DNA of 64,000 bases from Metabacillus dongyingensis (lineage in GTDB: Bacteria > Bacillota > Bacilli > Bacillales > Bacillaceae): the NCBI RefSeq assembly GCF_019933155.2, contig NZ_CP082944.1, positions 4,838,001 to 4,902,000 of the forward strand, in the 5' to 3' direction. The position numbers and the translations under genes were made by a program. The number at the start of each line of letters is the position of its first letter. Position 1 is the stretch's first letter. This document shows, piece after piece, positions 845 to 38,560 of the stretch. The notes below the pieces were generated by a model that worked only from the letters and a program-made list of their open reading frames with translations, made no database searches and had not been told where the DNA came from.

Positions 845-922
845 ACATGCGGTGCCGAAAGGAGGCCTTGCCAGCGCAGAAAAATGAAATCTGCTGCATC
901 TTCCAAACATGCAGAAACAGTT

Positions 923-1037
923 TTCAGCGAAAATCGCCCTTTTATTAGCGGAAAAGGAATAATTTATAGCCAGTTTTCTGTTTTTATTAGCCGATTTTGA
1001 GTTTTATTTAGCCGGCCATTTTTTCGAACTATCCGCT
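923..1037. repeat. 21-bp phased motif block, locus 1
   Basis: Hexamers of the type (A/T)NTAGC start at 923, 944, 965, 986, 1007 and, degenerate (ACTATC), 1028: six motifs exactly 21 bp apart. Bases between motifs share little apart from T-richness. The block fills the gap between the convergent genes ywjG and pyrG, where nothing else is recognisable except the pyrG terminator. The same spacing recurs at 14687-14993, 28143-30062 and 38377-38466. Confidence 0.7.
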
Positions 1038-1186: not shown

Positions 1187-2872
<1,686 letters not shown>

Positions 2873-11743: not shown

Positions 11744-11866
11744 CGAAAAGCGGAACCGCCCTGGGCAGACTCGGGCAGGCAGATAAGGATCCGGCAGATA
11801 AGGCGCTTTTTGCCTTTACTGACGGATCCGTTCTGACCGAGGGGCTGGGCGGTGCAGCTGGACAAT
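11744..11866 (+). repeat. Dispersed palindromic repeat, copy 2
   Basis: Starts CGAAAAGCGGAACCGCC and contains the CCGGCAGATAAGGCGC and CGTTCTGACCGAGG cores. It is directly followed head-to-tail by copy 3, with about 123-bp periodicity. It lies in the 372-bp gap between the C-C lyase and terD. Confidence 0.85.
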
Positions 11867-11989
11867 CGAAAAGCGGAACCGCCCTGGGCAGACTCGGGCA
11901 GGCAAATAAGGATCCGGCAGATAAGGCGCTTTTTGCCTTTGCTGACGGACCCGTTCTGACCGAGGAGCCTTTGAGCGGTGCATTCAAAC
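11867..11989 (+). repeat. Dispersed palindromic repeat, copy 3
   Basis: Near-identical head-to-tail neighbour of copy 2 (same opening GAAAAGCGGAACCGCC, same cores). The pair is the only tandem arrangement of this family in the window and suggests a local duplication. Confidence 0.85.
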
Positions 11990-14524: not shown

Positions 14525-14686
14525 TTTTATGAAAACCCCTCTCTTCAGCGTGTGCCGAAGTTTTCTATGTTCTTTCATTTTATACTAAATATGGAATGAA
14601 CTAAATGAAAAATTCAGGAAGGAGAATTGTTCTGTCATAAAGAGATTCAGATTAGTATTGGGCACCATTCTGAACCAAAGCATCCC

Positions 14687-14880
14687 GCTCGCAAAAACTG
14701 TACTTCTATTGCCAAAAATCCCCCTTCAACTCGTGAGAATCAAAGCCCAACTCTCAGAATCTGGCGTCCAATTTGCAAGCCGGCATTTCCTATGGTAAAA
14801 CCACTTTAAAATACCTATTTATAGCTGCTGCTGGCCATTTTATTGTTAATCCTGCTAAATTCAGGCTGGGTATTGAGAAT
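14687..14880. repeat. 21-bp phased motif block, locus 2a, with diverged 228-bp unit
   Basis: Motifs GCTCGC, ATTGCC, ACTCGT, ACTCTC and ATTTGC start at 14687, 14708, 14729, 14750 and 14771: five, exactly 21 bp apart. The following sequence (about 14812-14870: ATACCTATTTATAGCTGCTG, CTGGCCATTTTATTGTTAA, AATTCAGGCTGGGT) is recognisably a diverged version of the second half of the 228-bp unit at 28.1-30.1 kb. This is therefore an old single copy of the same element, downstream of icmF. Confidence 0.7.
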
Positions 14881-28112: not shown

Positions 28113-30062
28113 TGGGTTTGAAACCCGGTCCTATAAAACCCAACTCGCAAAAAACGCCATTCTATTAGCAAAAACCCTTCTTCTACTCGCAGGAATCACG
28201 GTTCAACTCGCGAAAAAGATCATCCAACTCGCATACCTCAATTTCAAACGAAAAAACTACATAAAAATGCCTGTTTCTAGCTGCCGTTGGCTATTTTATC
28301 GTAGATGCAGCTGACTATATAAAGAAAAATTCAGCTGCATTGGGTTTTAGACCCGGTTCCAAAGCACTCAACTCGCAAAAAACGCCATTCTATTAGCAAA
28401 AACCCTTCTCCTACTCGCAGGAATCTCGGTTCAACTCGCGAAAAAGATCATCCAACTCGCAAACCTCGATTTCAAACGAAAAAACTACATAAAAATGCCT
28501 GTTTCTAGCTGCCGTTGGCCATTTTATCGTAGATGCAGCTGACTATATAAAGAAAAATTCAGCTGCATTGGGTCTCAGACCCGGATCCAAAGCACTCAAT
28601 TCGCAAAAAACGCCTTTCAATTAGCAAAAACCCTTCTCCTACTCGCAGGAATCACGGTTCAACTCGCGAAAAAGATCATCCAACTCGCAAACCTCAATTT
28701 CAAACGAGAAAACTACATAAAAATGCCTGTTTCTAGCTGCCGTTGGCTATTTTATCGTAGATGCAGCTGACTTTATAAAGAGAAATTCAGCTGCATTGGG
28801 TCTCAGACCCGGATCCAAAGCACTCAACTCGCAAAAAACGCCTTTCAATTAGCAAAAACCCTTATCCAACTTGTAAGAATCACGGTTCAACTCGCGAAAA
28901 AGATCATCCAACCCGCATACCTCGATTTCAAACGAAAAAACTACATAAAAATGCCTGTTTCTAGCTGCCGTTGGCTATTTTATCGTAGATGCAGCTGACT
29001 ATATAAAGAAAAATTCAGCTGCATTGGGTCTCAGACCTGGTTCCAAAGCACTCAATTCGCAAAAAACGCCTTTCAATTAGCAAAAACCCTTATCCAACTT
29101 GCAAGAATCACGGTTCAACTCGCGAAAAAGATCATCCAACTCGCAAACCTCGATTTCAAACGAAAAAACTACATAAAAATGCCTGTTTCTAGCTGCCGTT
29201 GGCCATTTTATCGTAGATGCAGCTGACTATATAAAGAAAAATTCAGCTGCATTGGGTCTCAGACCCGGTTCCAAAGCACTCAATTCGCAAAAAACGCCTT
29301 TCAATTAGCAAAAACCCTTCTCCAACTTGCAAGAATCACGGTTCAACTCGCGAAAAGGATCATCCAACTCGCAAACCTCAATTTCAAACGAGAAAACTAC
29401 ATAAAAATGCCTGTTTCTAGCTGCCGTTGGCCATTTTATCGTAGATGCAGCTGACTTTATAAAGAGAAATTCAGCTGCATTGGGTCTCAGACCCGGATCC
29501 AAAGCACTCAACTCGCAAAAAACGCCTTTCAATTAGCAAAAACCCTTATCCAACTTGTAAGAATCACGGTTCAACTCGCGAAAAAGATCATCCAACCCGC
29601 AAACCTCGATTTCAAACGAAAAAACTACATAAAAATGCCTGTTTCTAGCTGCCGTTGGCTATTTTATCGTAGATGCAGCTGACTATATAAAGAGAAATCC
29701 AGCTGCATTGGGTCTCAGACCCGGTTCAAAAGCACTCAACTCGCAAAAAACGCCTTTCAATTAGCAAAAACCCTTCTCCAACTTGCAAGAATCTCGGTTC
29801 AACTCGCGGAAAAGATCATCCAACTCTCAAACCTCGATTTCAAACGAAAAAACTACATAAAAATGCCTGTTTCTAGCTGCCGTTGGCTATTTTATCGTAG
29901 ATAAGCTAACTTTATAAAACAAATTCAGCTGCATTGGGTCTCAGACCCGGATCCAAAGCACTCAACTCGCAAAAAACGCCTTTCAATTAGCAAAAATCCT
30001 TCTCCTACTCGCAAGAATCACGGTTCAACTCGCGGAAACTGGCATCCAACTCGCACAACCTA
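28113..30062. repeat. Tandem array of 228-bp units with internal 21-bp phasing
   Basis: The first motif of each unit (ACTCGC or ATTCGC before AAAAAACGCC) starts at 28143, 28371, 28599, 28827, 29055, 29283, 29511, 29739 and 29965: seven periods of exactly 228 bp, one of 226, and a ninth partial unit. Units differ by only scattered substitutions. Each holds five 21-bp-phased motifs, a TTTCTAGCTGCCGTTGGC segment, a 10-bp hairpin (ATGCAGCTGA / TCAGCTGCAT, e.g. 28305-28340) and a small palindrome GGGTCT-C-AGACCC. No plausible gene is present on either strand; the only long frame (29305-29532, minus) is a by-product of the 21-bp period. The array lies between the terminators of the convergent genes uvsE and argS. 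Confidence 0.95.
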
Positions 30063-30102: not shown

Positions 30103-31773
30103 TTACATCTTTTCTGGTGCAGAAACACCGATTAATGAAAGTGAATTTTTCAGCGTAATTTGCGTTGCTCTCATTAGAGCCAAGCGCGCTTTACTTTTCT
30201 CTTCATTTTCTGGATCCAGTACTTTTTCTGCATTATAGAAGCTGTGCAGAGCAGATGCCACATCATTCACGTAATTTGTGATGCGATGCGGAATGCGTTT
30301 TGTTGCTGCTTCTGCCACTGCCTGCGGGAATTCACCGAGTATTTTCAGCAGTTCAATTTCTTTTTCAGATGAAACATCTGTGAAATTCAAAACAGCGTCA
30401 TAAGATAATCCTTGTTCTGCTCCTTGACGCAGCATGCTTTCAATCCGTGCATGTGCATACTGTGCATAGAAAACTGGATTTTCATTGGATTGTGATGCAG
30501 CAAGGTCCATATCAAAATCCATGTGTGTGTCAGCGCTTCTCATTGCGAAGAAATAACGAACAGCGTCAAGACCTACTTCTTCCATCAGGTCACGCATTGT
30601 AACAGCTTTGCCTGTACGTTTGCTCATTTTCATTTTCTCGCCGTTTTTGTAAAGGTGAACAAGCTGAATAATTTCAACCTCAAGAGTATCCTTTTCATAG
30701 CCAAGGGCTTCAATAGCAGCCTTCATGCGCGGGATGTAGCCATGATGATCTGCTCCCCAAATGTTGATCAGCTTCGTAAATCCACGGTCAAGCTTATCTT
30801 TGTGGTAAGCGATATCCGGGGTTAAATACGTGTAAGAGCCGTCATTTTTAATTAATACACGGTCTTTGTCGTCTCCGAACACAGTGGAACGGAACCATGT
30901 TGCGCCATCTTCTTCGAAAATATGGCCTTTTTCACGGAGTACTTGAAGAGCCTGATCAATTTTTCCGTTATGGTAAAGGGAAGTTTCTGAATACCACACA
31001 TCAAATGGTACACGGAATTCTTCCAGGTCCCTTTTCAATTTATCCATCTCGAATTTCAATCCGTATTCACGGAAAAATCCAAGACGCTCTTCTTTGCTTT
31101 CATTTGCAAAACGATCGCCGAATTCATCAGCAAGCTTTTTGCCGATTTCGATGATATCCTGACCATGATAGCCGTCCTCAGGCATTGCTGCATCTTGTCC
31201 GAGAGCCTGCAAATAACGGGCTTCAACTGAAAGTGCAAGGTTGTTAATCTGGTTTCCTGCATCATTGATGTAGTATTCACGTGAAACATCATAGCCCGCT
31301 TTTTCAAGAATATTGCAAAGAGAGTCGCCGACTGCTGCGCCGCGCGCATGTCCTAAATGCAAAGTTCCAGTCGGATTAGCAGATACAAATTCAACTTGAA
31401 GCTTCTCTTTATTGCCGATATTGACCTCTCCATAAGAGTCACCAGCTTCAAGAATGGATGGGATAAGATCTGTTAAGTATGAGTTGTTCATATAAAAATT
31501 GATAAATCCTGGTCCTGCGATTTCAATTTTTTCTATAGATGCTTTTCCTTTATCAAACGAAGCAACAATGTCTTCTGCAATTGCGCGAGGTGCTTTCTTA
31601 GCAACGCGTGCAAGCTGCATCGCCATATTTGTGGAATAGTCTCCATGGGCTTTATCCTTAGGCAGCTCAAGAATAGCATCCGGAATTTGACTTTCTTCTG
31701 CCAGGCCTGCCTTAAGCACTGACGCTTTAATTTCACCTTTTAACCGTTCTTTTACTTGATCAACGATGTTCAT
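30103..31773 (-). CDS. argS: Arginyl-tRNA synthetase
   Basis: 556-residue class I aminoacyl-tRNA synthetase charging tRNA-Arg; same length as B. subtilis ArgS. HIGH motif as [14 protein letters not shown] (about residue 125); KMSKS-like [12 protein letters not shown] (about 370). N-terminal Arg-tRNA synthetase domain and C-terminal anticodon-binding DALR region ([11 protein letters not shown] onward) are present. ATG 31773 follows GGAGG and overlaps the ywiB stop in an ATGA quartet, so translation is coupled. No T-box leader is visible upstream. Confidence 0.97.
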
Positions 31774-38000: not shown

Positions 38001-38189
38001 ATGCCATACGTAACGGTAAAAATGCTTGAAGGCCGTACAGAGGAACAAAAAAAAGCTCTAGTCGAAAAAGTAACCGCTGCTGTATCTGAAACAACAGGTG
38101 CTCCTGCAGAAAAGATTGCGATTTTCATTGAGGAAATGAGCAAAAATCATTATGCTGTGAACGGTAAGCGTTTGAGTGACGAGGATTAA
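38001..38189 (+). CDS. ywhB: 4-oxalocrotonate tautomerase-like YwhB
   Basis: 62-residue tautomerase. The catalytic Pro follows the initiator Met (MPYVTVKMLEGRTEEQKKAL), and Arg residues at the family positions are present. It is thought to assemble as a hexamer; physiological substrate unknown. AAAGGAGAG precedes the ATG. Monocistronic with its own terminator. Confidence 0.93.
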   Translation: MPYVTVKMLEGRTEEQKKALVEKVTAAVSETTGAPAEKIAIFIEEMSKNHYAVNGKRLSDED

Positions 38190-38202
38190 GTACATATAAG
38201 GA

Positions 38203-38236
38203 AGACCGGCCTCTTTGGAGAGGGCCGGTTTTTTAT
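38203..38236 (+). terminator. ywhB terminator
   Basis: The stem ACCGGCC / GGCCGGT followed by TTTTTTATTT, 15 bp after the stop codon. Confidence 0.9.
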
Positions 38237-38376: not shown

Positions 38377-38466
38377 GCTAATTGATTCCGGATTTTAGCT
38401 AAATAATATAAGATTTACGCTATTAATCTTGGGAAATCAGCTAATAAAATGTCATTTTAGGCTATA
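38377..38466. repeat. 21-bp phased motif block, locus 3
   Basis: GCTA starts at 38377, 38398, 38419, 38440 and 38461, five times exactly 21 bp apart: GCTAAT, GCTAAA, GCTATT, GCTAAT, GCTATA. Relative to the other loci the motif is reverse complemented. The 15-17 bases between motifs are unrelated to one another. It lies in the gap between the convergent ywhB and ywgA, which otherwise holds only terminators. Confidence 0.75.
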
Positions 38467-38560
38467 AATAAGGAACAGGACTATTCAAATCTGCTCAGGT
38501 TCCAATTCGTTATCTCAACTGCAGCATCTTCTTCCAGCCGCTAACCCTCCCTGGGCATAA

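Follow-up and report, generated by a model that had tools for sequence, protein, structure and literature searches.

What could hold short GCTA motifs at an exact spacing of 21 bp in DNA whose intervening bases differ from one repeat to the next? The question is raised by a locus of Metabacillus dongyingensis (genome G000, 5.42 Mb) that lies within the window, i.e. the whole stretch of 64,000 nucleotides analysed here (G000 contig C1, positions 4838001-4902000). On the plus strand GCTA starts at 38377, 38398, 38419, 38440 and 38461 without drift, as originally noted, and the phased spacing also recurs, as had been claimed, at three other window loci, all on the minus strand: 908-1012, 28128-30054 and, in degenerate form, 14676-14775 (Table 1). 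The bases between motifs, first described as not alike, are not random, with an A-rich lean at positions 5-10 and a T-rich lean at positions 16-19. The window contains five triplets of GCTA at 21-bp steps, vs none in 100 dinucleotide shuffles. Pairs of the wider motif GC[GT]A[AG] number 27 at lag 21 and 19 at lag 42 (mean 1.2 per lag), much of this excess being contributed by a 228-bp repeat. When the motif is relaxed to GC[TGA]A[AGT] and one skipped unit is permitted, a shuffle holds about 1.0 chain of at least three, the longest reaching four in 30 shuffles; thus a chain of five is beyond chance, whereas lone loose chains of three or four are not.

Table 1. Phased arrays of the window and the features that flank them
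Feature	Position	Strand	Evidence or detail
Family B (GCTAAATAAA-type) five-site array	38377..38481	+	R1 model, 39.9 bits
Family B array	908..1012	-	GCTA at 1012, 991, 970, 949; GCTG at 928; R1, 37.3 bits
Family A (GCGAGTTGG-type) tandem array, 228-bp module	28128..30061	-	Nine phased blocks, at most 5 sites each
Family A blocks 1-5	28131-28232, 28358-28460, 28586-28688, 28814-28912, 29042-29144	-	
Family A blocks 6-9	29270-29372, 29498-29596, 29726-29826, 29952-30054	-	
Degenerate family A-like array	14676..14775	-	R1, 23.3 bits, E 1.8e-6
Tautomerase gene, co-oriented, upstream of the 38377 array	38001..38189	+	Pfam PF01361
Intrinsic-terminator-like hairpin between the tautomerase gene and the 38377 array	38200..38235	+	Sequence; hairpin and T-run rule
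pyrG (CTP synthase), co-oriented, upstream of the 908-1012 array	1187..2851	-	Pfam PF06418
argS, co-oriented, upstream of the 28128-30061 arrays	30103..31773	-	Pfam PF05746/PF00750

The family A tandem modules, in the window and at L148, L149, L150, L152 and L155, have copies 216-228 bp apart, so that linker length is variable; most of their phased blocks fit the model without gaps. Another dispersed intergenic repeat (GAAAAGCGGAACCG... and CAGGCAGATAAG), seen at 11744-11965 and in L243 and L245, also lies near some arrays.

The arrays extend beyond the window. A sequence-only model of five-site arrays (R1), built from 15 arrays, has 64 matches in G000 at E <= 1, counted as 31 places, and 47 at E <= 0.001, at 20 places. 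At the stricter threshold there are matches in 14 of 60 genomes, G000 included, with 50 in the sister species G005, 34 in G010 and none in G003 or G004. R1 recovers the motif families GCTAAATAAA, GCGAGTTGG and GCAAGTAAA, while GGAATTAAT and CTGATAAAA were found by other means. One site of the GCAAGTAAA family retains a spacer like GAGGCATTC in three species (L262:17026 and L266:5515 in G004, L166 and L167 in G000, L341 in G005), one of which, G004, has no R1 match. A pattern scan of public genome contigs gave at least 116 loci, of which, among those listed, 15 fall in what we take to be Bacillales genera. Lag-21 identity is 0.51-0.75 in 11 of these 15 and 0.81-1.0 in the other four. Of the 101 listed non-Bacillales loci, 72 lie in open frames, 22 are repeats of short period and seven are of other kinds.

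The prominence of 21 bp can also be assessed without reference to any motif, by scanning evenly spaced stretches of seven genomes (255,793 noncoding bases). Lag identity over 84 bp gives 12 places at a period of 21 (four each in G000 and G021, two in G005, one each in G002 and G004, none in G039 or G041), three of which are doubtful by eye, L252 and L262 resembling coding heptads and L289 a 41-bp repeat. Between 11 and 60 no other period occurs more than once per genome, save 20 (two in G021), 42 (two in G000, the L212 and L213 arrays) and a class at 51-54. A second statistic gives 25 places at 21 vs 18 at 26, with four at 20, three at 15 and one or none at any other period within 15-30. The 25 are divided among G000 (eight, five of which are one tandem locus also seen as L152), G021 (six), G002 (four), G004 (three), and G005 and G039 (two each); G041 has no such place by either statistic. 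In these scans 21 bp is the outstanding noncoding period, beside a separate 26/52-bp class. The scans brought out new families: GGAATTAAT...AAAGTC in G000 and G005, CGGATAATAAA in G002, and further ones in G021, which has no R1 match.

The 26/52-bp class is a second kind of intergenic tandem repeat, with a unit of about 52 bp, in some cases as two 26-bp halves, and locus-specific sequence. It occurs at L257, L259, L260, L262 and L264 (G004), L210, L225 and L226 (G000), L271 and L274 (G005), L254 (G002), and L196, L197, L312, L313 and L314; a unit of 52.5 bp would equal five helical turns.

The arrays have a preferred genomic place and polarity. The array at 38377 has the tautomerase gene and its terminator on one side and a convergent gene on the other. 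For 26 G000 loci (25 of the 31 R1 places, and L212), with genes predicted by a codon-usage caller, the gene upstream, in the orientation of the array, is co-oriented in 21 of the 25 determinable cases (one-sided binomial 4.6e-4), four arrays not being behind a co-oriented gene. The corresponding figure for G005 is 15 of 19 determinable cases from 20 loci, many of them orthologs of the G000 loci. The downstream gene is co-oriented in 13 of 25 cases in G000 and nine of 19 in G005, and convergent genes flank nine of the 26 G000 loci. Of 20 arrays searched with a simple hairpin rule, 11 are separated from the gene by a sense terminator-like hairpin, and four are followed by one.

The anatomy of the arrays was examined in 15 chosen family B elements, of which G000 supplied eight and G005 seven (at L164 and L165, where the copy in G005 has five sites and that in G000 four, the former was used). 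In none of the 15 does a sixth in-phase GCNA follow the last site, and in four one precedes the first; because a five-site model served to find or to align the elements, the count of five is in part imposed, and among the public-contig matches listed, arrays in other Bacillales have 7-31 motif units, i.e. can far exceed five sites. In the GCTA family the five differ in consensus, site 4 of family B being exactly GCTAATAAAA in 10 of 15 elements, vs 0-2 of 15 for the other sites. Dyad symmetry of single sites is not significant in any of 12 families/species sets (lowest p 0.096). Same-site spacer identity between families A and B ranks first of 24 permutations, but at 0.424 vs 0.392 it is only slightly raised, and common descent of the two families through site-specific spacers was not adopted.

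How spacing and sequence have fared in evolution can be gauged from 15 aligned G000/G005 array pairs from 14 loci, with 1248 core positions. The cores carry 129 substitutions (10.3%) and two indels: that in L153/L237 is of 3 bp and breaks phase, and that in L164/L311 is of exactly 21 bp; the noncoding flanks carry 525 substitutions (7.9%) and 122 indels over 6642 positions. Substitutions are therefore no rarer in cores than in flanks, whereas phase-breaking indels, with one observed vs 22.9 expected from the flanks, are depleted about 20-fold (Poisson 2.7e-9), in a sample that leans to intact phase because 11 of the 15 pairs were picked via model matches in both species. The G005 orthologs of the window arrays at 38377 and 908-1012 each lack an indel in the array. 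Within the unit, the substitution fraction is 0.03-0.09 at positions 1-7, 9-10 and 17-19, 0.16 at position 8, 0.12-0.23 at 11-16 and 0.11-0.12 at 20-21.

Seven pairs were fetched via flanking genes or synteny: L162/L315, L164/L311, L165/L307 and L212/L319, which are also among the 15, and L213/L343, L345/L336 and L344/L332, weak G000 matches (E 0.03 and 0.08) having helped to locate the last two places. Six of the seven keep phase, with length differences of 21 bp in L164, 63 bp in L213 and again 21 bp in L165, the last lying just ahead of the first shared site. Phase is broken in L344/L332 by three 1-bp indels, in a decayed copy that lacks motifs as well. Phase is also kept in L167/L341, matched in both species, where G005 has a second array. 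The comparison suggests that the 21-bp spacing is under stricter evolutionary constraint than the bases that separate the motifs. The proposal that phase rather than sequence is constrained is thus supported by the indel depletion, with its ascertainment caveat, by the outstanding 21-bp period and by the families that share one spacing.

Arrays and motif families have also been gained, lost and replaced. Seven places were compared among species (38377, 908, L162, L164, L165, L212 and L245), and at four of them another species holds a different 21-bp-spaced motif family. At L245, family B in G005 corresponds in G000 (L331) to CTGATAAAA-type sites, six in number and spaced by exactly 21 bp, within flanks that are about 97% identical. 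The other three places hold family B in G000 and G005, and in G002 they hold six ACTGATAAAA-type sites at 21 bp (38377), five CGGATA sites with one step of 22 bp (908) and six CTGATAAAA-type sites at 21 bp (L165). In G001 and G006 the 38377 place is occupied by 52-bp repeats, as is the L164 place in those two genomes and in G002. On the array side of the gene, no array was seen in G003 or G004 at either window place, in G001 or G006 at the 908 and L165 places, in G001, G002 or G006 at the L162 place, or in G006 at the L212 place; the gene flanking L212 was not found in G001 or G002. Of 17 arrays tried that are one-sided between G000 and G005, seven (L239, L347, L158, three in L166, and L159) had no counterpart in the fetched stretches; the G005 arrays L238, L243 and L346 are absent from G000, where the segment in question is in each case shorter by 300-400 bp, and the G005 place of the 14676-14775 array has other sequence. 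A tentative reading, which we regard as possible though doubtful, takes these observations together: the conserved information may be distance and count (about five sites, two turns apart, behind a terminator), with the motif itself turning over, and the arrays may be architectural elements of the Bacillales in which families of different motif replace each other at one intergenic place, their reader being a putative protein or set of paralogs.

With moderate confidence, we consider the arrays to be DNA elements rather than RNAs or genes, putative sites at which an oligomeric DNA-binding protein is wrapped by, or binds to one face of, the helix in a manner like that of Lrp or RemA. The kept spacing, the unit-sized length changes, the two zones of low substitution and the helix-phased A/T runs described below fit an element contacted on one face. 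The arrays would then be compound sites, typically of five asymmetric direct repeats 21 bp apart, at the 3' ends of transcription units, often beyond the terminator, and oriented as the upstream gene. A protein oligomer would touch the helix on one face at every second turn, wrapping or bending about 84-105 bp. This oligomer may be a ring or disc resembling an octamer, since four steps of 21 bp amount to 84 bp, which would pass once round four dimers, and it may have a role in local DNA topology, i.e. supercoil uptake, or in insulation behind transcription units.

BarR, an Lrp-type octamer, has four to five predicted sites with a 15-bp motif, two turns apart, with the DNA wrapped round the octamer (PMC10201364), and in the accounts cited the octamer operators of BarR, FL11 and LrpC resemble the arrays in having four to five regular sites two helical turns apart, in motif length and in an expected wrapping of about 100 bp (PMC10201364, PMC2995911). 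By contrast, the Lrp/AsnC sites are imperfect inverted repeats of 13-17 bp in control regions or promoters, whereas the array sites are asymmetric direct repeats and, in 21 of 25 cases, follow the 3' end of a gene of like orientation; the arrays also differ in having many dispersed copies and several motif families and in lacking a link to an lrp gene. The number of Lrp/AsnC gene matches (two, seven and one in the array-rich G000, G005 and G010; three each in G003 and G004, which have no R1 match) bears no relation to array abundance, and was rejected as a predictor of arrays.

The RemA regions of Bacillus subtilis are described as poorly conserved AT-rich direct repeats with a helical period, and RemA as an octameric ring thought to wrap DNA (PMC8481266). 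Known RemA regions lie upstream of promoters, with 7-bp protected stretches spaced by 3 bp, whereas the arrays have 21-bp units behind genes, their place being judged from genes. The repeat period of RemA regions is about 10 bp; in the arrays AA/TT is phased at 10.5 bp, in 20 of 21, and the unit itself measures 21 bp. RemA-like genes (PF04025) give two matches in each of 11 genomes, G000 included, and, being the same in number in all 11, are uninformative as a predictor. The resemblance to Lrp and RemA is thus one of putative manner of working, and membership in either system is not claimed, given the lack of dyad symmetry, the place behind genes, Lrp gene counts that do not track the arrays and RemA-like genes in all 11 genomes.

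The REP/BIME elements of enterobacteria are dispersed extragenic repeats at gene 3' ends, and the arrays resemble them in this. REP units are, however, palindromic, whereas the array units show neither dyad symmetry nor a folding excess, and are constrained in spacing. Phased A-tracts of curved prokaryotic DNA, with A/T runs at 10-11 bp, are described in the parts of the reports considered as a periodic bias of whole genomes (PMC3940949, PMC3431218, PMC3372288), unlike the arrays, which are discrete elements with a motif and a polarity. No description of a 21-bp phased class was found in the literature searched, at the level of titles and abstract beginnings.

The best surviving alternative, which we consider rather unlikely, is that the arrays are intrinsically curved or easily wrapped DNA with no dedicated protein, serving as gyrase, HBsu or plectoneme-apex sites that take up transcription supercoils. 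Such a role would be comparable to that of BIMEs in E. coli, and the position at 3' ends, with nine of 26 G000 loci between convergent genes, accords with it. The 10.5-bp phasing of AA/TT has z >= 1.8 in all but one of 21 arrays, and a 21-bp component reaches z 2 in three of 21. In 16 of 19 arrays the 10.5-bp share of A/T content is larger than the shares at 21 and 7 bp, though it is significant vs block-permuted columns (p < 0.05) in only four of 19. A wedge model predicts curvature at z >= 1.9 vs shuffles in 16 of 21 arrays, but near zero in families D and E and in the Virgibacillus array. Motif positions 1-4 are, moreover, less substituted than the rest (18/281 vs 111/967, Fisher p 0.014), and plain bending needs neither a consensus for each site nor a polarity. 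Of the initial suggestion of a protein filament, a nucleoid-associated protein or intrinsic curvature, what stands is that bending or wrapping is plausible, from the AA/TT phasing and the predicted curvature; which protein acts, or whether any does beyond general factors, does not follow from it.

Improbable, in our view, is that the arrays are selfish or neutral tandem repeats, duplicated by slippage, spread past terminators and then decaying, so that phase is a memory of duplication. Unit-sized length changes are consistent with this, as are the five identical 21-bp units of L255 in G002, the tandem modules 216-228 bp apart, the gain and loss of whole arrays, the arrays of 7-31 units in other Bacillales among the matches listed, and the 52-bp repeats at the same places in other species. 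Repeats of this kind would, however, gain indels at the rate of the flanks, whereas phase-breaking indels are depleted, subject to the ascertainment already described. The site number and per-site consensus of family B, replacement by another family of equal spacing and the lack of any recurring unit length in the noncoding scan besides 21 and the 26/52 class also argue against neutral duplication.

An RNA-level element of 3' untranslated regions or of read-through transcripts is very improbable: the polarity shared with the upstream gene and the hairpins after the array in four of 20 cases would suit it, but in 11 of 20 a sense terminator-like hairpin already lies between gene and array, no evident RNA reason exists for two-turn spacing or for 10.5-bp AA/TT phasing, Rfam has no match in the window, and 19 arrays have no folding excess on either strand (mean z -0.15), L156 (z -3.2) excepted. 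Descent from a coding repeat with a seven-residue period, now decayed, is hardly credible, since, although 21 bp is seven codons and open frames of at least 100 aa cover 72 of 101 non-Bacillales and eight of 15 Bacillales loci among the matches listed, the family B motifs contain TAA, all six frames of the Virgibacillus array are open together and none of 26 G000 arrays lies under a called gene. That Virgibacillus array (L068:96-971, 31 motif units) yields heptad-like ORFs. The suggestion that such sequences get annotated as proteins found no support in a single search with one Virgibacillus ORF, whose five matches were four nameless proteins and one named fish protein, with no named bacterial protein.

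We return to the arrays as putative sites for an oligomeric protein. The depletion of phase-breaking indels leads to a sharp prediction for them: that insertion of half a turn would abolish function, while changes to the spacers would not. A search for the reader could make use of the motif families as a ready-made natural series. We know of no Bacillales counterpart of the enterobacterial BIMEs, and in this group the arrays are concrete, countable DNA sites where topoisomerases or proteins of the nucleoid could be active at the ends of genes.
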